This document shows, one piece after another, positions 4,809 to 34,487 of a stretch of DNA of 38,064 bases. Each line of letters starts with the position of its first letter. Positions within the stretch are counted from its first letter, which is position 1. The position numbers were made by a program, and so were the translations under genes. Below the pieces are notes generated by a model. It did not search any database, was not told the DNA's origin, and saw only the letters and a list, made by a program, of their open reading frames with translations. Source of the stretch: a virus; IMG/VR virus record IMGVR_UViG_3300020176_000037, positions 1 to 38,064 of that record; one strand, 5' to 3'.

Positions 4809-5489
4809 TTAACGGTTAGCAGCAGCTTTCAACCTCTCGTACATATCCCGATCCGTGCGATAAAGCCGCGACTGTTCTGTGAGGTTGTAGGACTCTTTGG
4901 CGAAAGGATTCTTTGTGCCCGGTGGGATGTCACCACCTGTGCTGCGTCCTGAAGGCGCACCGCTGCCAACTGGCTTGGGTGCTTTCTGCATATAGCTGGG
5001 CAAAGTTTTGGCCCACTCGCCAATCGGCTTGCGCTCATAGCCATTGACGACAACAACCGTGCCATCAGATTCGCGCTCAATTTGGTCCGGCTTCAGCAAG
5101 TCCGCTTTGAATACGATGCTCGGATCATGCACAACATCGGCCAATGCTGTGTTCGCAGGTGCAATCAGCTCTAGCTCGCGGACTCGTGCTTCAAGCTCAG
5201 CAATCCGCTTGTCCTTGGCTTCAGCCGCCTCCCGAAACTGCTGCTCAAGAGCCTGACGCGCCTCGGTGTACTTGCCTTCTGATTCGAGTTTGTTCTGCTC
5301 AACGTTCCGTTTGAAGTCAAGCAGTTCCTGAACATCAACGCCGTCAGGGATTGTTTTTGCTTCTTTGAGCTTGCCGATCAGCTCGTAATTCTTTTTCTCT
5401 AACGCTTGGATGCTGTTCTTGAGTGCATCAAGCTCGGCATTGTTTGGAGCTGCGGGAGACGTAATCTCCAGATTTTGCTCTTCAGACAT
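4809..5489 (-). CDS. Scaffolding protein
   Basis: A 226-residue acidic, largely helical protein. Residues about 15-110 form a heptad-like coiled coil (ALKNSIQALEKKNYELIGKL, AEAKDKRIAELEARVRELEL). A low-complexity Pro/Gly linker (APKPVGSGAPSGRSTGGD) and a short charged helical C-terminus follow. This is the usual architecture of procapsid scaffolds with a C-terminal coat-binding helix. It directly precedes the major capsid gene in transcription order. Confidence 0.85.
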   Translation of the reverse strand: MSEEQNLEITSPAAPNNAELDALKNSIQALEKKNYELIGKLKEAKTIPDGVDVQELLDFKRNVEQNKLESEGKYTEARQALEQQFREAAEAKDKRIAELEARVRELELIAPANTALADVVHDPSIVFKADLLKPDQIERESDGTVVVVNGYERKPIGEWAKTLPSYMQKAPKPVGSGAPSGRSTGGDIPPGTKNPFAKESYNLTEQSRLYRTDRDMYERLKAAANR

Positions 5490-21635: not shown

Positions 21636-21653
21636 GCCCTTCGGGGCTTTTTT
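21635..21653 (+). terminator. Intrinsic terminator, AGCCC-TTCG-GGGCT plus T-run
   Basis: A 5-bp G/C-rich stem with the stable TTCG loop is followed by five further T (21649-21653). It overlaps the TGA of the 82-residue gene. The opposite strand lacks a T-run, so it acts for the plus strand only. Confidence 0.85.
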
Positions 21654-21867
21654 AGTCCCAAGTGGCAATCTTGGCGTCAAGTTCCCCGATTCTGCCCACG
21701 GCTTGGCTGAGCAGTTTTGACTGGTGCCAGCTCTGCCTGACCAACGAAACGCAGAGCGTCTTCAATACTTCTTCATCTTGGCAGTTCTGCACTTCTCTGA
21801 CGCTGCGCTCAATCTCCAGCTCCTCGTGCAATGAGGGGGACACCTGCATCCAGTCTGCCCAGCCCAT
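21652..21867 (-). CDS. 71-residue helical protein at the end of the lysis-type cluster
   Basis: MGWADWMQVSPSLHEELEIE, then RSVREVQNCQDEEVLKTLCV and SLVRQSWHQSKLLSQAVGRI, ending LDAKIATWD. Acidic helical protein with a likely coiled coil, common as an unknown small protein in cyanophages. It starts 59 bases inside the previous gene. Could be a spanin-like or accessory protein, but it has no membrane or lipoprotein signal. Confidence 0.65.
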   Translation of the reverse strand: MGWADWMQVSPSLHEELEIERSVREVQNCQDEEVLKTLCVSLVRQSWHQSKLLSQAVGRIGELDAKIATWD

Positions 21868-22060
21868 CGGATTGTTTCAGAACCTTTCGTTCTGAATGGT
21901 ACGGCCCGCTTTTGTGCATGTCCATGGTGTCCCTGACCCATGGGACCAGCCATTGGTCAACCTGTGCGCATCGCTCCCAGTTCACCGGCTTGGCGCACTG
22001 AACGACAACAGTCGTCCAGAACGCGCTGATAAAAGCCCAAAGCCAATACCAGTCAGCCAC
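21809..22060 (-). CDS. Small membrane-anchored protein of the lysis-type cluster
   Basis: An 83-residue ORF from GTG 22060 overlapping the peptidase stop by eight bases (GTGGCTGA). ADWYWLWAFISAFWTTVVVQ is one hydrophobic N-terminal span, followed by a polar region with NWERCAQVDQWLVPWVRDTM. An i-spanin-like or signal-anchor role would fit the neighbourhood, but the sequence alone does not prove it. The C-terminal 20 residues overlap the next gene. Confidence 0.55.
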   Translation of the reverse strand: MADWYWLWAFISAFWTTVVVQCAKPVNWERCAQVDQWLVPWVRDTMDMHKSGPYHSERKVLKQSDGLGRLDAGVPLIARGAGD

Positions 22061-22760
22061 GGATGAAAATCATCCAGCCTGTGCCTGGGCCATCAACCAG
22101 CCACCTGTAATTGAACTCGGACTGGCGGACCCGCACCGACTTGCCAGACCTTGATTGGTCATGGCCGCCCCTCTCCATGAGCGGGTAGCCCATCGGATCG
22201 TGCATGACGTAATACTGATCACCAACTGGGCTGTGCTTGCCCTGATAGCCGGTGATCACGGACCAATGACCGCAGGCAGGGCCACCGCACATTGGTGGTT
22301 CGCCTCGGGTTAGGTCACCTTTGTCGTACCATCCGACCAAAACAGCGGATCCACGAGAGATGGCCTGTTCGATCATCTCCGGCGTGCCTTTCTGAGTGAA
22401 CTCCACATCCAAGCCCAAGGCCCGAAGCGTTTGGAGCTGGGCGTTAACACTTGTGGTGTCGCCGTAGTGGGCCAGGTGGTAGATGTACTCGTTATCTGAA
22501 TCGACCAGACCGGCGCTGGCTGCGAGCATGGCGGCGGCAGAGGCGAAACACTCACGCCAACCGTCTTGTCCGTTGTCGAGTTGCTGGAAGTAGGGGACGA
22601 AAACTTCTTGGTCAATGCCAGCAGCTCGCCAGGCCTCGAACCACTCGCTGTCTTCCTGAAGAAGCTCAGAAGGCATGGCCTCCTGTAGGGCTGCAACGCC
22701 AGCCAGGTGGTAGGGCGAGTCATCCCGGAAGTGCTGAAAGAAGGGCAGCAAACTGAGCAC
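22053..22760 (-). CDS. C39-like (papain-fold) peptidase, likely endolysin
   Basis: A 235-residue protein from GTG 22760 (LSLLPFFQHFRDDSPYHLAG). GQDGWRECFASAAAMLAASA holds the nucleophile Cys and preceding Gln; ACGHWSVITGY holds the His; YYVMHDPMGYP holds the Asp. This is the order of peptidase C39_2 proteins, which in phages often cut peptidoglycan cross-links. The frame is open to 22967, but that part covers two other small genes. The start lies two bases after the previous stop (TGAGCGTG). Adjacent to a holin. Confidence 0.75.
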   Translation of the reverse strand: MLSLLPFFQHFRDDSPYHLAGVAALQEAMPSELLQEDSEWFEAWRAAGIDQEVFVPYFQQLDNGQDGWRECFASAAAMLAASAGLVDSDNEYIYHLAHYGDTTSVNAQLQTLRALGLDVEFTQKGTPEMIEQAISRGSAVLVGWYDKGDLTRGEPPMCGGPACGHWSVITGYQGKHSPVGDQYYVMHDPMGYPLMERGGHDQSRSGKSVRVRQSEFNYRWLVDGPGTGWMIFIRG

Positions 22761-22762
22761 GC

Positions 22763-22918
22763 TCAGGGCACCGACAGACGGCCCGATGATGCCTGGCCAC
22801 AGGCGCTCTCGCCAGCTGTATATCCGGCGATGAAAACCAGCATTGAACTGCACAGCAGCAGCGTGACCGCGCCGCCTGCAACGATCCAACCCGTCAAGGA
22901 AAAGACGGACATTTTCAT
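22763..22918 (-). CDS. 51-residue single-span membrane protein
   Basis: ORF from ATG 22918 (ATGA overlap with the previous gene) to TGA 22763: MKMSVFSLTGWIVAGGAVTL, then LLCSSMLVFIAGYTAGESAC. One long hydrophobic segment follows a short N-terminus and leads to a small polar tail. Placement directly before the peptidase suggests a holin-like, antiholin-like or anchor role. A frameshift joining it to the peptidase as a signal anchor is possible but unsupported. Confidence 0.6.
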   Translation of the reverse strand: MKMSVFSLTGWIVAGGAVTLLLCSSMLVFIAGYTAGESACGQASSGRLSVP

Positions 22919-23088
22919 TTTTCAACTCTCGTCTCCGGATACATGGACTTGACCACAAAGGACACAACCTGGTCGTCGATTTGTGATTCGGTCGATTCTG
23001 AGTAGGCGGTCAAAAGATCGACCACTAATTTTTTTACGCCTTCCGATTGCAAGAAACGGAACAGGATTGGGCGGATCAGAAGCAGCAT
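22915..23088 (-). CDS. 57-residue conserved small protein
   Basis: ORF from ATG 23088 to TGA 22915: MLLLIRPILFRFLQSEGVKK, then LVVDLLTAYSESTESQIDDQ and VVSFVVKSMYPETRVEK. A hydrophobic N-terminus precedes two helices. I recall near-identical proteins beside lysis and tail genes of marine cyanophages. It is divergent from the holin with a 44-base gap, which must contain or overlap the promoters of both; no consensus promoter is clear there. Confidence 0.7.
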   Translation of the reverse strand: MLLLIRPILFRFLQSEGVKKLVVDLLTAYSESTESQIDDQVVSFVVKSMYPETRVEK

Positions 23089-23132: not shown

Positions 23133-23411
23133 ATGGCAGAAACACCGCAGACAAAAACGGAAGAGCAAGAGGAACACGGCAGCGGACGCCTTGGCGATTT
23201 TGTCCGCATCACGATCATGTTGTGGGCCATGGGCATCATCACCGCCAACTATTTGGGATACTTCAAAGGCTCCATTGACGTGACTTTCAGCGCGTCTTTG
23301 TTGAGTTCAACGGCGGCCAGCTACGGTTTGACGATGAACCGAATGGGGAAGAAGAAGAAAGAAGAGAGCGTTATCGTTGATAACAGTAAAACCAACGCAG
23401 GCATCAAATGA
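23133..23411 (+). CDS. Holin-like two-span membrane protein
   Basis: A 92-residue protein: polar N-terminus MAETPQTKTEEQEEHGSGRL, a first span FVRITIMLWAMGIITANYLG, a second weaker span VTFSASLLSSTAASYGLTMN, and a basic cytoplasmic tail GKKKKEESVIVDNSK. This layout is typical of small holins in cyanophages. It faces the minus-strand peptidase operon and is followed by exported proteins. Confidence 0.65.
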   Translation: MAETPQTKTEEQEEHGSGRLGDFVRITIMLWAMGIITANYLGYFKGSIDVTFSASLLSSTAASYGLTMNRMGKKKKEESVIVDNSKTNAGIK

Positions 23412-23929
23412 CCCGCGCACTTTTGGTATTGGGCATCACTTTGCTGGCAGCCCCTGCCCATGCTGACCTGCGGCATGTGATGACCCAAAGCGCCCAGATC
23501 TCGGTGGATCAGGCCTACAGCTCAGCAACTCGTGGCGGCACGACCTACAGCAGCCAAGGAACGAACGTCACCCCATCAGTGACGGCTAGCGGCACAACGA
23601 CAAGTAATCGGATCGGCGGCCTGGACATGTCCACCATCACCAGCGGTGTGCCGGACATCGTGGACACGGACTATGACGTCACAACCCCTGGCTCGGCTTA
23701 TTCCATGACTGAGTCGCTCACCGTCGGCGACAGTATCCCTAGTTCCACCACGGTCACGAACGGCGTTGTGCCTTCTTTGCCAGCAATGATGACGACGATT
23801 ACCGGAGCCGGTGGCGAGACCGGATCCCTGGCGGCCACGGTGACCAGCTCAGGCCAAGCAACCGTGACGGCTGGCGACGCTGGGACCTCGGCCATCTTGT
23901 CCACCAAGATCGAGCTGGAAATTGACTAG
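23408..23929 (+). CDS. Exported Thr/Ser-rich protein
   Basis: A 173-residue protein with signal peptide TRALLVLGITLLAAPAHA cleaved before DLRHV. The mature part is rich in Thr/Ser/Gly and beta strands (SSATRGGTTYSSQGTNVTPS, TSSGQATVTAGDAGTSAILS). It overlaps the holin stop in AAATGACC. It would go to the periplasm or outer surface of an infected Gram-negative-type cell. Function unknown; a role in lysis, superinfection exclusion or virion association is possible. Confidence 0.65.
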   Translation: MTRALLVLGITLLAAPAHADLRHVMTQSAQISVDQAYSSATRGGTTYSSQGTNVTPSVTASGTTTSNRIGGLDMSTITSGVPDIVDTDYDVTTPGSAYSMTESLTVGDSIPSSTTVTNGVVPSLPAMMTTITGAGGETGSLAATVTSSGQATVTAGDAGTSAILSTKIELEID

Positions 23930-24353
23930 GGCTTGGCTGCTGGTTTTGCTGCTGCCTAGCTCAGCTATGGCCGCACCTATCGTTCCCCAGTTCACCCAGG
24001 GCCAGCTCAATTCGCGGGTCGAATCCACAACGGTGATTCAAGAATCCATCACCAGTTACAACTACCGAACCGGCTATAGCTATTCAGCTGCAGGCCATAA
24101 CGTCGAAACGGTGGGCGATGTGCCCATCTCTCCTGATGCCACCGTCACCAACAATCAGACCGTCGGTGGCGTGAACTTTTCTTGGACTAGCCCCCACCTT
24201 GAAACCAAGCCCCAATGGCAAGTCGTCAATCCTGGCGAAAGCTGGAGCATCACCGAATCGTTCATGGCTCCTGGCCTCGATGCAGTGACGCAGGTTCAAA
24301 GGACTATCACCACGGAAAGCGTCACCGAAAGCACCTCGGTGTTCTCGCAGTAA
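23922..24353 (+). CDS. Second exported beta-rich protein
   Basis: A 143-residue protein from TTG 23922 (overlaps the previous TAG): signal peptide TRAWLLVLLLPSSAMAAPIV, then QESITSYNYRTGYSYSAAGH and a SWSITESFMAPGLDAVTQVQ segment. It is homologous in style to the preceding protein (TTxSV, SYSxxGxNV and GESWSxTES versus GSAYSMTES), suggesting a gene duplication that diverged. TTG start is inferred because no ATG is available. Confidence 0.6.
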   Translation: MTRAWLLVLLLPSSAMAAPIVPQFTQGQLNSRVESTTVIQESITSYNYRTGYSYSAAGHNVETVGDVPISPDATVTNNQTVGGVNFSWTSPHLETKPQWQVVNPGESWSITESFMAPGLDAVTQVQRTITTESVTESTSVFSQ

Positions 24354-24985
24354 TCGCGGCGCTCGGCAGCCCTGCTTACGCCAACACAACAGTGGCAAAC
24401 CCTTCGAGCACATCCACAGGCTCGGTGGTCAACAACGCCTACCAAATGATGACGGGACCGCATCCGATCTACCGGATGTCGCAGGGGATTCAGTGCCCTG
24501 GGCCAACACTTACGGTGTCGCCATTCATCACGGGCAGCAGAAACTACGACCTGCCGTTTGAGTCAACAACCAAGACACCTGTTTATTCAACAGCAGACAG
24601 CAACGATGACGGCGAGCCTGACTCCCCAGGCAAGGTGCTCTACTACTCAGAGCTGCCACGTTTTGAGAAGGACCGACGCTCTCTGAACTACGGCATCACG
24701 GCCACCTTTTCTGTTCCGCTGGACCGTGGCTTGGCGGATCAATGTAAACGAGCTGTCAACACAAACATCAAACTGCAGGAGCAGTTGTTAGCAACCAAGC
24801 GCCTGGAGCACGAGCTTTTTAGGGCTCAGAAATGTGGGGAACTGGCCAAGGCGGGCGTGCAATTTACTGGCCAAATGTCAGTAGTGTGCAGTGACCTAAT
24901 CGTCACAGTGCCCCCGGTTGAGATGGTGCCTCACACACACGCTATTTCCGCGCCTTCCGCTGCGCCTGCTTCCTCAGGAAAGTAG
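24215..24985 (+). CDS. Third exported protein (start uncertain)
   Basis: The coding evidence starts near 24330: RKHLGVLAVIAALGSPAYA is a signal peptide, then about 200 residues including IYRMSQGIQCPGPTLTVSPF, LPRFEKDRRSLNYGITATFS and a C-terminal helix region with several Cys. The only standard start in frame is ATG 24215, which overlaps the previous gene by 139 bases and gives a 40-residue basic extension. A non-standard start or frameshifting from the previous gene is possible. Function unknown. The 3' end overlaps the convergent gene by 44 bases. Confidence 0.5.
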   Translation: MASRQSWRKLEHHRIVHGSWPRCSDAGSKDYHHGKRHRKHLGVLAVIAALGSPAYANTTVANPSSTSTGSVVNNAYQMMTGPHPIYRMSQGIQCPGPTLTVSPFITGSRNYDLPFESTTKTPVYSTADSNDDGEPDSPGKVLYYSELPRFEKDRRSLNYGITATFSVPLDRGLADQCKRAVNTNIKLQEQLLATKRLEHELFRAQKCGELAKAGVQFTGQMSVVCSDLIVTVPPVEMVPHTHAISAPSAAPASSGK

Positions 24986-25655
24986 AAGGCCGCGCCTCCT
25001 TCTTACGGGTCACAATCTCCTTTGCCTTGGTCAGCAGCTTTTTCACCACGGGCTTGATGATCCGCACCAAGAACGGCGTGCTGAGCGCGGCAGTGGTGGC
25101 CACCACCGCAATGCCTGCGGTCTGTGCTGCCTCGTAAGGCGACGGGATTGCCTTGGCCAGCTGCTCGGTGACAGGAACGTTGCGGTAGACCTCTTTGCAG
25201 ACGCCATCCACCAACTCGTAAGACTCCAAGATCTTGCGGCCATTGGGTGACAAGGTGCCCACCTCTACCGCATCTGCTGGCGGACACTTCACCTCCGGCT
25301 GCGGCTTCTCCTTTGGCGGTGGTGGCTTTGGGTCGGTTTTTTGTCCCGCTGGTGGCTGCTCTTGCTCATCGTTCTGTATCGGTGTCGGCTCAATGATTTG
25401 CAGCTTGCGCGGGTTCCAGTCCAGCGGAACGTAACTGGGCATCTCGCCTTCAGGGCAAGAGATGCCAACGCCGTTTGGGTCATCCCGCAGCAGGGATGGA
25501 TTGAGATGGGCGTCTCTGTGAACCCTGGCACATCCAGGCTTTTGGTATATCGGACGCGGCGCTAGGTTCTGTGTGACCGGCGGTGGGAATACATGCGGCT
25601 CAGGGATGGGCCGTATCTCAATCGTCGGGATCTCAATATCAGGAATGTCCGGCAT
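24942..25655 (-). CDS. Proline-rich membrane-associated protein
   Basis: A 237-residue protein: MPDIPDIEIPTIEIRPIPEP and more Pro/Ile repeats at the start, then QPPAGQKTDPKPPPPKEKPQ. A hydrophobic AQTAGIAVVATTAALSTPFL segment follows near residue 190, with a strongly basic C-terminus (TRKKEARPSTFLRKQAQRKA). Several Cys lie in the middle. The Pro-rich stretch could span the periplasm, as in TonB-like or spanin-like proteins; this is inference. The start codon overlaps the divergent gene's start (CATG). Confidence 0.6.
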   Translation of the reverse strand: MPDIPDIEIPTIEIRPIPEPHVFPPPVTQNLAPRPIYQKPGCARVHRDAHLNPSLLRDDPNGVGISCPEGEMPSYVPLDWNPRKLQIIEPTPIQNDEQEQPPAGQKTDPKPPPPKEKPQPEVKCPPADAVEVGTLSPNGRKILESYELVDGVCKEVYRNVPVTEQLAKAIPSPYEAAQTAGIAVVATTAALSTPFLVRIIKPVVKKLLTKAKEIVTRKKEARPSTFLRKQAQRKARK

Positions 25656-26007
25656 GAAGTCAGAGCGGTTTACAGCAGGTCAGCTGTGGATTGAGAGGAA
25701 CCGCAGGAGAGAGGGGCCGCCCATTGTTTACACCGTAATGAACGGGACCAGCGCCAGGCCGTTTACAGATACAAAGGCCATTTTGAAGTGGGTCAAGTGG
25801 CCCAAAGGTACGCCCACAGGTGACGCGCTACGCGATTGGCTTTCCTCGTTTGAGCAAAAACAAGAGGCACCCGCGCCAAAACTTGATTGGGACAAGATCA
25901 AAGCTGAAGGTTTTGGACCTGAAGCCCATGAAGAGAAGACCGTTGACCCAATCACCGGAGAGGAGATACCGGAAGACCCAATCACCGGCACCAAGATGGT
26001 TATTTGA
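25654..26007 (+). CDS. 117-residue protein of unknown function
   Basis: Read from ATG 25654 (MKSERFTAGQLWIERNRRRE). IVYTVMNGTSARPFTDTKAI, then LKWVKWPKGTPTGDALRDWL, and an acidic C-terminus with a direct repeat DPITGEEIPEDPITGTK. Compact alpha-beta N-terminal part. It is transcribed alone on the plus strand between minus genes, so its promoter must lie inside the divergent gene. Recalled as a common small gene beside tail fibres in cyanophages; function unknown. Confidence 0.6.
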   Translation: MKSERFTAGQLWIERNRRREGPPIVYTVMNGTSARPFTDTKAILKWVKWPKGTPTGDALRDWLSSFEQKQEAPAPKLDWDKIKAEGFGPEAHEEKTVDPITGEEIPEDPITGTKMVI

Positions 26008-26218
26008 AGGGAATGGCAGGCCCCGTGGCTTTGGGCAGCTCAGGAACTTCAGGGACAGGCACTTGGTCAAGGATCGTTTTTGTCAGCTCTAGCTTCAGCT
26101 CGCTGGCGTAGTTTTTGACCATCGATGGCACGCGCGTGTAAGCCATCACGCCCATGACGGCCATGGTGCCAGACATGACAAAGCCAAGAACACCCAGCAG
26201 GTTGTAGACCTTTTGCAT
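26000..26218 (-). CDS. Small single-span membrane protein
   Basis: A 72-residue protein: MQKVYNLLGVLGFVMSGTMA, then VMGVMAYTRVPSMVKNYASE, KTILDQVPVPEVPELPKATG. One N-terminal membrane span, an amphipathic helix and a Pro-rich tail. It lies after the terminator at 26231-26257 in transcription order, so it needs read-through or its own promoter. Function unknown. Confidence 0.65.
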   Translation of the reverse strand: MQKVYNLLGVLGFVMSGTMAVMGVMAYTRVPSMVKNYASELKLELTKTILDQVPVPEVPELPKATGPAIPFK

Positions 26219-26230
26219 AGCTTAGAAAGT

Positions 26231-26257
26231 AAACAAAAGGCCCCCTTTCGGGAGCCT
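26231..26257 (-). terminator. Intrinsic terminator after the porin-like gene
   Basis: Minus strand: AGGC-t-CCC-GAAA-GGG-g-GCCT, with an internal T/G mismatch and a GAAA loop, followed by TTTGTTT. It ends the tail and porin-like transcript 38 bases after the stop at 26295. Confidence 0.75.
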
Positions 26258-26294
26258 CTTGCTGACTTGTGTGAGGAGTCGTCTGAGTTATAGC

Positions 26295-26645
26295 TCAGAG
26301 GTCAAACTTGCCGCCAACTTTGAGGTTAAAGCTGGTATCGGAGTCGATAGTGGCAAACGACAGCTCGGTGTAGCCAGGGCCGAAGCCGTAGCCAGCCTTG
26401 CCGCTGATGCCCACCTCAGTGTCGGTGCCGGTATCAGGAACGCGGATCATGGGGCCAATTTGTGCGTATGCACCATTGCCCTCGATGCCCAGGTGCAGAT
26501 CCACGTCAACACCGCCAACGCCGTTGGAGCCGGTTGCGCCAACGTTAGCCTCGGGGTTGAAGTACACCGGAGCGGCGGAGACAGACAGGGGGGCCAATGC
26601 ACTGACCGCAAAAGCGGCGGCACCAGTCACAAAAGATTTGATCAT
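26295..26645 (-). CDS. Secreted porin-like beta-strand protein
   Basis: A 116-residue protein with signal peptide MIKSFVTGAAAFAVSALAPL followed by SVSAAPVYFNPEANVGATGS. Mature sequence alternates hydrophobic and polar residues (GGVDVDLHLGIEG, GYGFGPGYTELSFATI) and ends FNLKVGGKFDL, an outer membrane C-terminal Phe/Leu type end. Similar short proteins occur in Synechococcus and its phages, from memory. It is too small for a full porin barrel; it may insert in the outer membrane or coat the cell during infection. Confidence 0.65.
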   Translation of the reverse strand: MIKSFVTGAAAFAVSALAPLSVSAAPVYFNPEANVGATGSNGVGGVDVDLHLGIEGNGAYAQIGPMIRVPDTGTDTEVGISGKAGYGFGPGYTELSFATIDSDTSFNLKVGGKFDL

Positions 26646-27220: not shown

Positions 27221-29710
27221 TCAGATGCCTGCAGCATCAAGTCTAGCCTTGAGTGCCGCATTTTCTGCCGACAGTTCTTGCACCGCTTTCACCAGCGGCA
27301 TTACAAACATCTCATAGCTGATTCCTTGGATTCCTTCATTGTCTTCGGTCCAGCCAGCAAAGTCAGTGACACTGTGGTCGTCTAAAGCTTGCTTGACTTC
27401 TTGAGCAATAAAGCCATACATCTTGCTGGTGTAGTCAGCTTCCGTCTTGGCTGCGTCATAGCCAGGAAGACTTGAATCAAGCTCTGAGGGTGCTTTCCAC
27501 TTATAGGTAACAGTGCGGAGGTCATTGATAAAATCAAGGCCTAGATCGGTGTTGGTCTGAATGTCTTTTTTCAGCCGAATATCTGAATCACGACTCCATG
27601 ATGCGTTTGAAGTGAACTGGTTGTGAACGCGATTGCTTGCTTTGCCAAAAGTAAAAGTGTTATCGCCCTTATCTACAATGCCGACTCCAATGGTAATGCG
27701 GTGGCTGCCATCAACACTACCAACATCTGCGCCTTCGCCAATGCAAATATTGTTAGCCCCTGTAGTGCAGCCATCGCCTGCGGCATGACCTATAAAAGTG
27801 TTGCCATTGCCAGTTGTTACGGATGAACCTGCGTAATAGCCAACGGATGTGTTGTTGACTGCACTAGTAAGATCCTCTGAAGCTGCTCTTCCAACAGCAA
27901 CATTGCTGTCGCCACTGGTGCTATTCACCAAGGCGTTATTACCTACAGCCGTGTTATTAGAGGCAGTAGTGTTACTAGCCAGAGCGTTATAGCCTACCGC
28001 TGTGTTTTTCACGCCCGTTGTGGTGTCATAAAGAGCATCTGCACCAATAGCAGTGTTTTGGTCGCCCGATGTGCAGTCTGTAAGGGCTCTATAACCAACA
28101 GCAGTATTATTAGAAGCATTGGCTGCATCAAGTGCAAGCGCACCAACAGCTACATTCTTTGAGCCAGTGGTATTTGTATAAAGAGCCTCGTCACCAACAG
28201 CTGTATTGTCACCACCAGTAGTACTCGAAGTTAAAGCGTCAAATCCAACAGCAGTGTTGTTGCTAGCCGTCGTATTTGCATCAAGCGACCGCGAACCGAC
28301 AGCTGTATTTTGCGTGCCAGTAGTGTTAGCAGTTAAGGATTGATAGCCAATACCAGTGTTGTGATCTGCAGTAGTGTTTTGCTGAAGTGCGTATGTGCCA
28401 ACTGCAGTGCCTGTTGTCCCAGTCGTGTTATTGTCTAGGGTACCATAACCAACGGCAACATTTTCGTTTGCAGTTGTATTGGAACTGAGCGCGTTGTAGC
28501 CAATAGCTGTACTTCTTATGCCAGTTGTGTTACCAGTGAGTGCGTTATAACCAATAGCAACATGGCGACTCCCAGTAGTGTTTGCATCTAAGGCAAACTT
28601 GCCAACAGCAGTGTTTTCCGCGCCTGTTGTATTAGTTAGCAGAGCATTTTGACCGACAGCTACGTTGTCGGTGCCTGAAGTATTCGAGCCTAAGCAGCTT
28701 GCGCCGACACCTGTATTTCCGCCCGCTGTATTTGCAGTTAAGCAGTTAAATCCGACCGCAGTGCTGTTGCTCCCATCTGTATTTGCATCAAGGGCACTAG
28801 CGCCAACAGCAGTATTTGAATGGCCAGTTGTGTTTTCCTCTAGCGCTGAATTGCCGACAGCAGTGTTATTGCTTGCGGTGGTGTTTCTCTCTAGAGAAAG
28901 GTAACCAACAGCAGTGTTTTGAGATCCAGTGGTGTTTTGATCTAGGGCCTCAGTACCTATAGCAACGTTTTTGGTCCCAGTTGTCGTTCCAGATGCAGCC
29001 CCAGAGCCAACAGCAGTGTTGTTGTCTGCGGTGGACAGAGTTAAAGCATTGGCACCAACCGCAGTGCTGTTGCTTGTAGTTGTATTCGCATCGAGAGCAG
29101 CAGCGCCAACAGCAGTGTTATTGGTTCCACTGGTGTTTGTTAGTAGCGCATCCTTGCCACAAGCTGTGTTACTGCTGGCAGTGTTAGCTGCAAGAGCACC
29201 TTTGCCAACTGCAGTATTGCTGCTGCCTGTAGTAACTGCGCTTAAAGCGTCTTTACCTACGCCGGTATTAGCGTCACCCTCGGTGTTTGCGTCTAAAGAA
29301 TTATGGCCTACCGCAACATTATCATCACCAGTGGTATTAGCGGTTAAAGAATCATCACCAACAGCCGTATTGCGTGCGCCAGAAGTATTTGCATCTAATG
29401 CGCCTTTGCCGACAACGGTGTTCGTTGCAACGTCACCCGCTCCATTGCCAACAATGACGGAGTTAATGACTGCATCGGTGACCGACCGGGCCCCACCCGC
29501 CGTGGTCCCAACGTCAAGCCAACCATCGTTTGAGCTATTCCTGAGCTTGATGGTGTTGGTGTTGGTGTCAACCCAGATTTGATATGCGTAGGTCGTCCCA
29601 GGCTCAGATGAAGAGCTGTTCTGGCTGACGATTGCCGCTAGGGCGTTATTGAGATCTTGACGCACAGCCTGGCCTGTGCCGTTTGCAATCACATAATCGT
29701 GAGTAGCCAT
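27221..29710 (-). CDS. Tail fibre with YadA-head-like repeats and S74 chaperone domain
   Basis: An 829-residue protein. The N-terminus MATHDYVIANGTGQAVRQDL is the attachment part common to cyanophage fibres. From residue 97 to about 672 run some 34 copies of a 17-residue repeat (NTAVGxxALxxNTTGxx), the left-handed beta-roll of YadA-like adhesin heads. The C-terminus SDIRLKKDIQTNTDLGLDFI, with YGFIAQEVKQALDDH, is the S74 intramolecular chaperone that folds the trimer and cleaves itself off at a Ser (around RDSD). It should be the host-binding fibre. Confidence 0.9.
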   Translation of the reverse strand: MATHDYVIANGTGQAVRQDLNNALAAIVSQNSSSSEPGTTYAYQIWVDTNTNTIKLRNSSNDGWLDVGTTAGGARSVTDAVINSVIVGNGAGDVATNTVVGKGALDANTSGARNTAVGDDSLTANTTGDDNVAVGHNSLDANTEGDANTGVGKDALSAVTTGSSNTAVGKGALAANTASSNTACGKDALLTNTSGTNNTAVGAAALDANTTTSNSTAVGANALTLSTADNNTAVGSGAASGTTTGTKNVAIGTEALDQNTTGSQNTAVGYLSLERNTTASNNTAVGNSALEENTTGHSNTAVGASALDANTDGSNSTAVGFNCLTANTAGGNTGVGASCLGSNTSGTDNVAVGQNALLTNTTGAENTAVGKFALDANTTGSRHVAIGYNALTGNTTGIRSTAIGYNALSSNTTANENVAVGYGTLDNNTTGTTGTAVGTYALQQNTTADHNTGIGYQSLTANTTGTQNTAVGSRSLDANTTASNNTAVGFDALTSSTTGGDNTAVGDEALYTNTTGSKNVAVGALALDAANASNNTAVGYRALTDCTSGDQNTAIGADALYDTTTGVKNTAVGYNALASNTTASNNTAVGNNALVNSTSGDSNVAVGRAASEDLTSAVNNTSVGYYAGSSVTTGNGNTFIGHAAGDGCTTGANNICIGEGADVGSVDGSHRITIGVGIVDKGDNTFTFGKASNRVHNQFTSNASWSRDSDIRLKKDIQTNTDLGLDFINDLRTVTYKWKAPSELDSSLPGYDAAKTEADYTSKMYGFIAQEVKQALDDHSVTDFAGWTEDNEGIQGISYEMFVMPLVKAVQELSAENAALKARLDAAGI
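27695..29422 (-). repeat. About 34 tandem 51-bp coding repeats
   Basis: The repeats encode NTAVG-type 17-residue units, a few shortened to 16. DNA copies differ strongly while the protein motif is kept, so the array is old and under selection. It is not a CRISPR array. Confidence 0.85.
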
Positions 29711-33143: not shown

Positions 33144-33781
33144 GCCACTACCTCATCAACATCAAGACCGCTTGAAATAATTGCTGAGCCAACAAATACC
33201 CGCCCATACGCTATCGGCACCGGCAAGCCCTGCTTTGACGTATTAACGACATTTGAAAATGTAAACGATTCGAGCTGGACTGACTCATCGAGCTGTGTTG
33301 GTTGCGGCTGAGGAGAAATTGACTGACTAATTCCTAAAAACACCAAACCGACGCCGATATTTCCAGCAGCAGCCGCAAGACCTGCCGCAAGACCAGTTGC
33401 CCCAGGGACTACCGCGAACCCACCTTTCGCCGCGATAAATCCCACACCCGGAGCTGCAATAGCTATACCAATCAACGCAACTCCTGCCAAAATCGTACCA
33501 AGGCCACGGCCTGCACCCGCAATCACAGGTGTAATGCTAAAAACATCTTTTTCGCTCCAAGGCATTAACAACGGGCTTAAATCTTGCTCGGTTGCTTTTT
33601 CTTTGCTGACCGTTACCCGATAACCAACGCCATCTTTTTCGCTATCAATTAGCCACTTTTCAAGACCAGGGAAATTTACACATAAGGCTTTAATTGCCTG
33701 AGCCGGTGTTGCAGCCTCAAGCTCGAACCGGCATTGACCTAATTTCTTACGAAGTGCGCCGTAGACCTTAACGACTTTCAT
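33140..33781 (-). CDS. Tail assembly protein (lambda I-like)
   Basis: A 213-residue protein: KVYGALRKKLGQCRFELEAA, then TPAQAIKALCVNFPGLEKWL is the ubiquitin-like N-terminal domain of TAIL_I proteins. A Gly/Ala-rich hydrophobic section follows (GAGRGLGTILAGVALIGIAI). The C-terminus NTSKQGLPVPIAYGRVFVGS is the usual ending. Required for tip assembly in lambda. Overlaps gene K by 14 bases and gene J by four. Confidence 0.88.
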   Translation of the reverse strand: MKVVKVYGALRKKLGQCRFELEAATPAQAIKALCVNFPGLEKWLIDSEKDGVGYRVTVSKEKATEQDLSPLLMPWSEKDVFSITPVIAGAGRGLGTILAGVALIGIAIAAPGVGFIAAKGGFAVVPGATGLAAGLAAAAGNIGVGLVFLGISQSISPQPQPTQLDESVQLESFTFSNVVNTSKQGLPVPIAYGRVFVGSAIISSGLDVDEVVA

Positions 33782-34487
33782 GTCTCAAGGCGCAAGCAGT
33801 GCTCTTGCCATAGTAACTGCTGCCGAGGGTGTAAACATCCCTGCTCGACAGCCTTCCCTGCACATGATGCAAGATCTGGGAGTCTCCCAAGTAGATCGCA
33901 GCATGGTTTGGCAATGGCGAAACCAGCTGCATCAACAAGGCATCCCCAGGCTGCAACTCCTCAACTGGAATTTTGCGGAAGCCCTCAGAAGCAAAGTTGT
34001 CTAAATACAGGTTTTCACCTCGCTCCCAAAACTTGTCCTGTCGGTCATAGTCCTTGAGCTGTAAGCCCCATTCCCTTGCGTACCAGTCGCGGCAAAGGCT
34101 ATAGCAGTCCACCACACCGAACACAAACTCACGTCCCACATACGGAAGCTCAAAGCCCTCAGGCTCGCAGTAGCCCCAGCCTTCAGTGTTTGGGTTGACG
34201 ATGAACCACGGCAGACCGGACTTTTCGCACGCAACACGATCAGCCGGTGATGGAGCGGGATTGGTTTTGGGGTGACTGTGGACAACAGCAACCACCTCAC
34301 CCTTGTCTTCTACTTCATTCCAGCCGTCAAGAATGAAATGGGCGTCAGGGGTTTCAGCAATGTTGCGGCATGGAAAGTAACGCCGACGCCCTTTGACTAC
34401 AGCAACTAGACCACAGCTTTCACGCGGGAACTCATCTTTTGCGTGCTGAAGAATCTCAGCCTGCATTGTTGCTGTTAACTTCATCAT
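33768..34487 (-). CDS. Tail assembly peptidase: JAB/MPN plus NlpC/P60 (lambda K-like)
   Basis: A 239-residue two-domain protein. The JAMM part has an N-terminal Glu (FPRESCGLVAV) and HSHPKTNPAPSPADRVA, with the metal-binding His-x-His and Asp. The NlpC part has VDCYSLCRDWYAREWG (catalytic Cys) and NHAAIYLGDSQILHH (His). It is part of the tip assembly complex and may locally cut peptidoglycan at DNA entry. Both active-site sets look complete. Confidence 0.92.
   Translation of the reverse strand: MMKLTATMQAEILQHAKDEFPRESCGLVAVVKGRRRYFPCRNIAETPDAHFILDGWNEVEDKGEVVAVVHSHPKTNPAPSPADRVACEKSGLPWFIVNPNTEGWGYCEPEGFELPYVGREFVFGVVDCYSLCRDWYAREWGLQLKDYDRQDKFWERGENLYLDNFASEGFRKIPVEELQPGDALLMQLVSPLPNHAAIYLGDSQILHHVQGRLSSRDVYTLGSSYYGKSTACALRHESR

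Follow-up and report, generated by a model that had tools for sequence, protein, structure and literature searches.

Gene organization of the peptidase locus

The window, by which we mean the whole stretch of DNA analyzed, corresponds to one IMG/VR record (38,064 bases) and comes from a lambda-like siphophage with genes for a tail fibre J, a minor tail L, and a tape measure protein. Judged by its relatives, the phage is probably a cyanophage, with marine cyanobacteria as its likely hosts, and its genome is probably almost complete; by gene order, the ends of the record would nearly join inside the tail genes. A DNA-level search of positions 13100-38000 against phages returned no match. Elsewhere in the window, an 829-residue spike or fibre protein carries many NTAVG-like repeats and a C-terminal S74 chaperone domain.

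Five genes, encoding A57, B51, a C39-like peptidase, D83, and E71, run head to tail on one strand and overlap or nearly touch, and the gene for a membrane protein, hol92, points away from them (Table 1). A preliminary description of this DNA had proposed that the small genes are coupled to the peptidase gene by overlaps, and the ATGA, TGAGCGTG, and GTGGCTGA junctions are indeed present. A promoter scan was uninformative, with 1 match against 1.3 expected.

Table 1. Positions of the peptidase cassette and of other features of the window discussed in the text
Feature	Positions	Strand	Remarks
57-aa protein A57	22915-23088	-	ATG start
51-aa protein B51	22763-22918	-	ATG start; ATGA overlap
C39-like peptidase, 235 aa	22053-22760	-	GTG start; TGAGCGTG junction
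83-aa protein D83	21809-22060	-	GTG start; GTGGCTGA junction
71-aa protein E71	21652-21867	-	Last gene of the run
92-aa membrane protein hol92	23133-23411	+	Divergent, 44 bases from the minus-strand run
304-aa peptidase frame, spurious	22053-22967	-	TTG start; covers the 51-aa gene
Wider cluster	23133-26645		hol92, F173, F143, G256 (+) converging on H237; I72, J116 (-)
829-aa spike or fibre	27221-29710		NTAVG-like repeats; S74 domain
Minor tail protein	33768-34487		JAB and NlpC/P60 domains

Conservation and coding evidence

Related loci, which carry our own L numbers below, were collected in two scans of IMG/VR, one giving 59 loci and the other the best 80 of 420 confirmed ones (599 pattern matches), with contigs partly shared. 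Removal of 17 repeats left 116 peptidase loci including the window, with two contigs each present as two pieces; 105 of these have more than 600 bases of upstream sequence and were used, and 11 were set aside for too little upstream DNA. All 105 loci form one related group, and the peptidases of the 59-locus scan are 47 to 100% identical to that of the window over the matched part. An A57 gene lies upstream of the peptidase gene, on the same strand and within 450 bases, in 105 of 105 loci, and hol92 is divergent within 1,100 bases in just as many. B51 is an optional partner, present in 56 of the 105 loci and missing in 49, and in several lineages its absence is accompanied by a shortened spacing, with a gap of 64 or 19 bases versus 154.

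Pairwise dN/dS ratios support the coding status of all six genes, in tests that are not independent because the loci are related and many pairs lie near saturation at synonymous sites. Pooled and median values are, respectively, 0.11 and 0.09 for the peptidase (101 sequences), 0.18 and 0.17 for hol92 (83 sequences), 0.19 and 0.22 for A57 (80 sequences), 0.40 and 0.34 for B51 (48 sequences), and 0.26 and 0.30 for D83, for which only 14 sequences were available; E71 has a median of 0.195 (58 sequences), its pooled value being saturated. The same measure bears on the longer peptidase frame, which the preliminary description had held to be spurious and to hide the two tiny upstream genes. Across 28 loci, the stretch upstream of the peptidase gives ratios of 0.84 and 0.82 when read in the peptidase frame versus 0.33 and 0.31 in the frame of B51, which favours the tiny genes and rejects a 304-residue peptidase.

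Family and predicted fold of the peptidase

The peptidase matches PHROG 10051, an endolysin family, with an E value of 4.3e-42. Its score for the Pfam family C39_2 (PF13529) is 23.7 against a cut-off of 24, and relatives exceed that cut-off with scores of 27.5 and 40.9. A search of the PDB by sequence profile gave no match at E values up to 1. An AF2 model built from 44 sequences has a pLDDT of 81.5 and a pTM of 0.77, with residues 1 to 10 under 50, and its best fold match is the C39-like peptidase 3erv (Z 15.8 over 157 residues at 3.2 A). The model also matches 6mpz (Z 14.4), and other near folds are those of the PCAT and ComA leader peptidases, staphopains, toxins, and the pseudomurein endoisopeptidase PeiR (Z 14.3). 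Gln60, Cys71, His165, and Asp188 are invariant in all 44 rows of the alignment; after the papain enzymes, we take Gln60 to be the oxyanion residue and assign the roles of the other three, which gives a predicted active site. The fold is thus predicted to be of the C39/papain type, as the preliminary description had suggested from the sequence.

Relatives of the peptidase were found by tblastn in 93 of 50,697 phage records, each of which bears the name Synechococcus phage or cyanophage, and a sister protein used as the query reached 105 phage records. Among the 40 of the 93 records that were listed, identity to the window peptidase is 29 to 40%, and the proteins go by the names lysozyme, endolysin, C39 family peptidase, and hypothetical or predicted protein. 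The proposal that an unusual enzyme here replaces the common lysis enzyme is not supported in that form, given these numbers and the existing label of PHROG 10051 as lysis/endolysin. By homology, the window enzyme is a C39-only form of a known kind of cyanophage endolysin and not a new kind of enzyme.

A host origin of the peptidase was considered and rejected. A strict pattern scan of genome contigs returned 2 peptidase relatives among 249 pattern matches, both on contigs of metagenome-assembled genomes; one of these, L147, is likely a phage contig, because a divergent 88-residue frame lies upstream of its peptidase gene. A Cyanobium protein 60.3% identical to the peptidase of S-SRP02 has been reported (PMC8790148).

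Isolate relatives were informative for their domain fusions, which Pfam identifies in five of the eight proteins examined. A glucosaminidase domain (PF01832, GH73) is joined to C39 in S-CBS1, S-EIVl, S-CRES2, and P-SS2 ORF098, the shorter gene model in a partial P-SS2 record being without it, and in ACG-2014f the C39 domain is joined to Phage_lysozyme (PF00959, GH24). The S-N03 protein has a C39 domain plus a remainder with no Pfam assignment, and the proteins of S-CBP2 and S-SRP02 consist of C39 alone.

Role of the peptidase

The best reading of the peptidase is that of an endopeptidase endolysin, and we judge the 235-residue protein to be probably the endolysin of this phage, given its predicted C39/papain fold, the invariant residues, and the fusion of its relatives to glycosidases. 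These fusions and the PHROG 10051 match also bear out the proposal that the locus encodes a probable cell-wall enzyme. As a papain-like (C39 clan) cysteine endopeptidase, it would cleave peptide bonds of the host's peptidoglycan when infection comes to its close, a substrate bond that we infer. Peptidase_C39_2 is included in a published table of endolysin domains (PMC5017753). Among 41 window proteins scanned, drawn from those other than the terminases, portal, and capsid, two were recognised as resembling wall hydrolases, namely the C39 protein and a minor tail protein in which JAB and NlpC/P60 domains occur.

Two other roles for the enzyme have to be weighed against that of an endolysin. It could be a peptidoglycan hydrolase of the virion, carried in the particle to open the wall at entry; in favour of this, very large phage proteins can contain the domain too, as the C39-like part of PHROG 10075, a family of 1205 positions, shows. 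The 235-residue peptidase, however, stands alone outside the tail operon of a phage that already has an NlpC/P60 tail protein, and its P-SS2 relative, the "Lysozyme" ORF098, averaged 0 peptides in three virion replicates in which the tape measure protein averaged 102 (PMC2784084, Table 2); we therefore regard a virion role as very unlikely. A protease that cleaves a phage or host protein, as a leader peptidase or in host takeover and with no role at the wall, is suggested by the PCAT and ComA leader peptidases among the nearest folds and by matches to Pfam C70/AvrRpt2, which are weak in the window peptidase and above the cut-off in several relatives. This role, too, appears unlikely, as two different kinds of peptidoglycan glycosidase are fused to the domain in the isolate proteins and no transporter was recognised among the scanned neighbours. 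Published accounts of C39 proteins beside other lysis enzymes count against the endolysin role: S-SRP02 has a C39 peptidase plus an amidase, and its authors hold the amidase responsible for lysis (PMC8790148), while a Shewanella phage is described with a C39 peptidase, alike by name, in addition to a putative endolysin (PMC6893657).

A further alternative leaves the enzyme an endolysin and concerns only its neighbours, which may be unrelated to lysis and linked to it merely by descent within one phage group. Such a history would account for the origin of all 105 loci from one related group and for the scattering of the partner families among the eight C39-bearing isolates. PHROG 2738, the family of A57, occurs in two of them, at a distance from the peptidase gene of about 5 kb in S-N03 and 10 kb in ACG-2014f; PHROG 721, that of hol92, occurs in one (S-N03), as a weak match with two stops; and PHROG 703, that of D83, occurs in three, at about 4 kb in S-CRES2 when counted round the circle and at 28 to 50 kb in the other two. 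Because PHROG 2738 and PHROG 721 are found in so few of the eight, the enzyme does not require these partners. The gene order has nevertheless been kept while B51 and an additional coiled-coil gene (described below) come and go, and while a dCTP deaminase gene has been inserted in some loci; a form of A57 only 33 to 35% identical occupies the same place; and a relative of E71 lies two genes after the S-CBS1 endolysin. On balance, linkage by descent alone is possible but somewhat improbable.

Small partner proteins and the search for spanins

Transmembrane spans were assessed by Kyte-Doolittle hydropathy with a 19-residue window and a cut-off of 1.4. The single span that had been proposed for the 51-residue protein is clear in 44 of 44 distinct members of the B51 family, which has no confident match in searches of family profiles. 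The one proposed for the 83-residue protein is only borderline: D83 reaches 1.30 near its N terminus in the window, and 12 of 48 members pass. No span is found at this cut-off in A57 (0 of 64 members), a member of PHROG 2738 (E 3.1e-20) that is soluble or amphipathic by hydropathy, and E71 is soluble, with no span in 58 of 59 members.

The A57 gene is replaced in place by the divergent form in L006 (2951-3124), L007, L013, L014, and L018, and B51 is missing in these loci; the second scan also contains loci with similar sequences, L091 and L121 among them. D83 belongs to PHROG 703 (E 1.5e-16), a family found in 314 phage records at a loose limit of E 0.1 that adjoins mazG and primase/helicase genes in the cyanomyovirus S-RIM44. 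It is probably not specific to lysis, and a passenger role through co-transcription is likelier for it than that of a spanin. Some sister loci have a dCTP deaminase gene inserted ahead of E71, on the peptidase side; in L089 it is a 172-residue insert (4907-5425) that matches this enzyme, and L090 (1656-2174) looks alike. The idea that E71 is a mere passenger was not firmly upheld, because its relative, S-CBS1 gp26 (L001, 20163-20408), follows the S-CBS1 endolysin gp24 at a distance of two genes.

The preliminary description had raised the prospect of new spanin or antiholin types. Nothing observed here speaks for or against an antiholin, and the candidate B51 is absent from 49 of the 105 loci. 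No lipobox was detected in the first 40 residues of 12 window proteins around the cassette, and a stricter scan of window frames of at least 35 residues gave four sites that we judged spurious or inside the capsid gene. The missing lipobox led us to reject B51 and D83 as spanins, D83 also on account of its family's place beside mazG in S-RIM44. A different 83-residue protein, of PHROG 26178, looks on sequence features like an inner-membrane spanin, with an N-terminal hydrophobic segment followed by a coiled coil (by eye). Its gene is present in 34 of 105 loci (for example, L008, 1442-1693), lies between the hol92 and A57 genes in the loci read, and is absent from the window, where no partner lipoprotein for it was found.

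Proposed export of the peptidase

Read from its GTG start, the window peptidase shows neither a span at the cut-off nor an evident signal peptide; if it acts on the wall, it would therefore need a holin. We propose that a small membrane protein, for which hol92 is the first candidate and B51 the second, would open a lesion that lets the peptidase pass the inner membrane, and that A57 may help or time this lesion.

Sister loci without B51 suggest another arrangement. In 33 of 33 such loci, the motif LLPFF lies exactly 54 bases after the A57 stop, and in 32 of the 33 the peptidase frame stays open back to a possible start at position -17 or -18, counted in codons from the motif. The stretch so added is hydrophobic (15-residue mean of 1.98 to 2.84) and has a dN/dS ratio of 0.37 versus 0.71 and 1.36 in the other frames. 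These loci thus likely encode a membrane-anchored, periplasmic form of the peptidase, held outside the inner membrane; this form is likely rather than certain because all 33 loci also conserve a start at codon -4. Within the window group, the last 17 to 18 codons before LLPFF give 0.52 versus 0.65 and 1.33, values that do not discriminate between the frames, and a slightly earlier start of the peptidase is possible there.

A divergent candidate holin

The hol92 protein matches DUF6450 (E 4e-10) and PHROG 721 (E 3.6e-13). Its first hydrophobic stretch is a clear span (1.52), its second is weaker (0.94 in the window and 0.61 to 1.24 across 85 members), and its tail is basic, with a median net charge of +4 in 85 distinct members. 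Class II holins are described as having 65 to 95 residues and two spans (PMC12843271). At 92 residues, with a single clear span followed by a less hydrophobic stretch, hol92 is a plausible candidate for this class, and it shares the features of a charged C-terminal tail and proximity to an endolysin. Its constant divergent position in all 105 loci agrees with the divergent holin suggested by the preliminary description, and we put the likelihood that hol92 is the holin at slightly below even.

With the window hol92 as the query, tblastn found a single weak match in one phage record. Profiles, and the DUF6450 member of S-RIM44, reach the wider family, and the latter used as a query places it in 441 phage records. 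No mention of DUF6450 was found in the literature searched.

A wider cluster and a possible exit module

The hol92 gene is the first of an operon that continues with F173, F143, and G256, whose N termini resemble signal peptides by eye; the operon converges on H237, past which lies I72. The AF2 model of G256 is poor (pLDDT 60.4, pTM 0.32). Profile searches locate hol92, I72, H237, G256, F143, and F173 together in S-RIM44, where J116 is about 9 kb distant. In the T7-like phages S-RIP1 and SS120-1, they place hol92, F143, G256, and A57 in one neighbourhood, upstream of a packaging gene. I72 belongs to a PHROG named "plasmid stability", and the DUF6450 match in Syn1 extends into a "plasmid stability protein". 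For T4-like cyanophages, a hypothetical cluster of five genes that includes a "plasmid stability" protein has been described (Sullivan et al. 2010, PMC3037559). The hol92 gene and its window neighbours at 23408-26218 match the same families in S-RIM44, and we infer that the T4-GC cluster genes of that paper are those of the window cluster. Words beginning with holin, lysis, or lysozyme are absent from the main text of PMC3037559.

The cluster and the C39 gene are separable. No C39 gene was found in the stretches of S-RIM44, S-RIP1, and SS120-1 examined; S-RIM14 (KX349304) has both the DUF6450 and C39 families, about 126 kb apart; and S-PM2, reported to be without the cluster (PMC3037559), has a C39 relative. 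It is conceivable, if doubtful, that a pan-cyanophage exit module opens the inner and outer membranes of cyanobacteria, with hol92 as its holin. Such a module would comprise hol92, two or three exported proteins (F173, F143, and G256), H237, I72, and A57, and would do the work of the spanins not found in the window. The wall enzyme that works with it would vary from one phage group to another, being the C39 endolysin in this phage.

Relation to known systems

In the literature searched (titles and starts of abstracts), we found no description of the cassette, and the conserved partner set around the peptidase is undescribed there. Its interest lies in a compact arrangement that places a recognisable wall enzyme beside a cluster of membrane proteins common to myo- and podoviruses, and so narrows down which genes are worth testing for a part in lysis, in viruses whose hosts are important primary producers of the sea.

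The substrate of PeiR is the archaeal wall. By its entry title, PeiR acts on the cell wall, and it has a papain-type fold like that of the window model (143 residues at 3.4 A) at 16% identity, a resemblance in fold that need not imply one in function. The Bacillus anthracis C39-like peptidase 3erv also shares the fold, at 18% identity, but is a cellular protein. The closest known systems are the cyanophage C39 endolysins of PHROG 10051 (S-CBS1 gp24, the S-CBP2 "lysozyme", and P-SS2 ORF098), which have the same C39-like domain. Although S-CBS1, S-EIVl, S-CRES2, and P-SS2 add a glucosaminidase to this domain and ACG-2014f a phage lysozyme, the window protein has C39 only, as do the proteins of S-CBP2 and S-SRP02.
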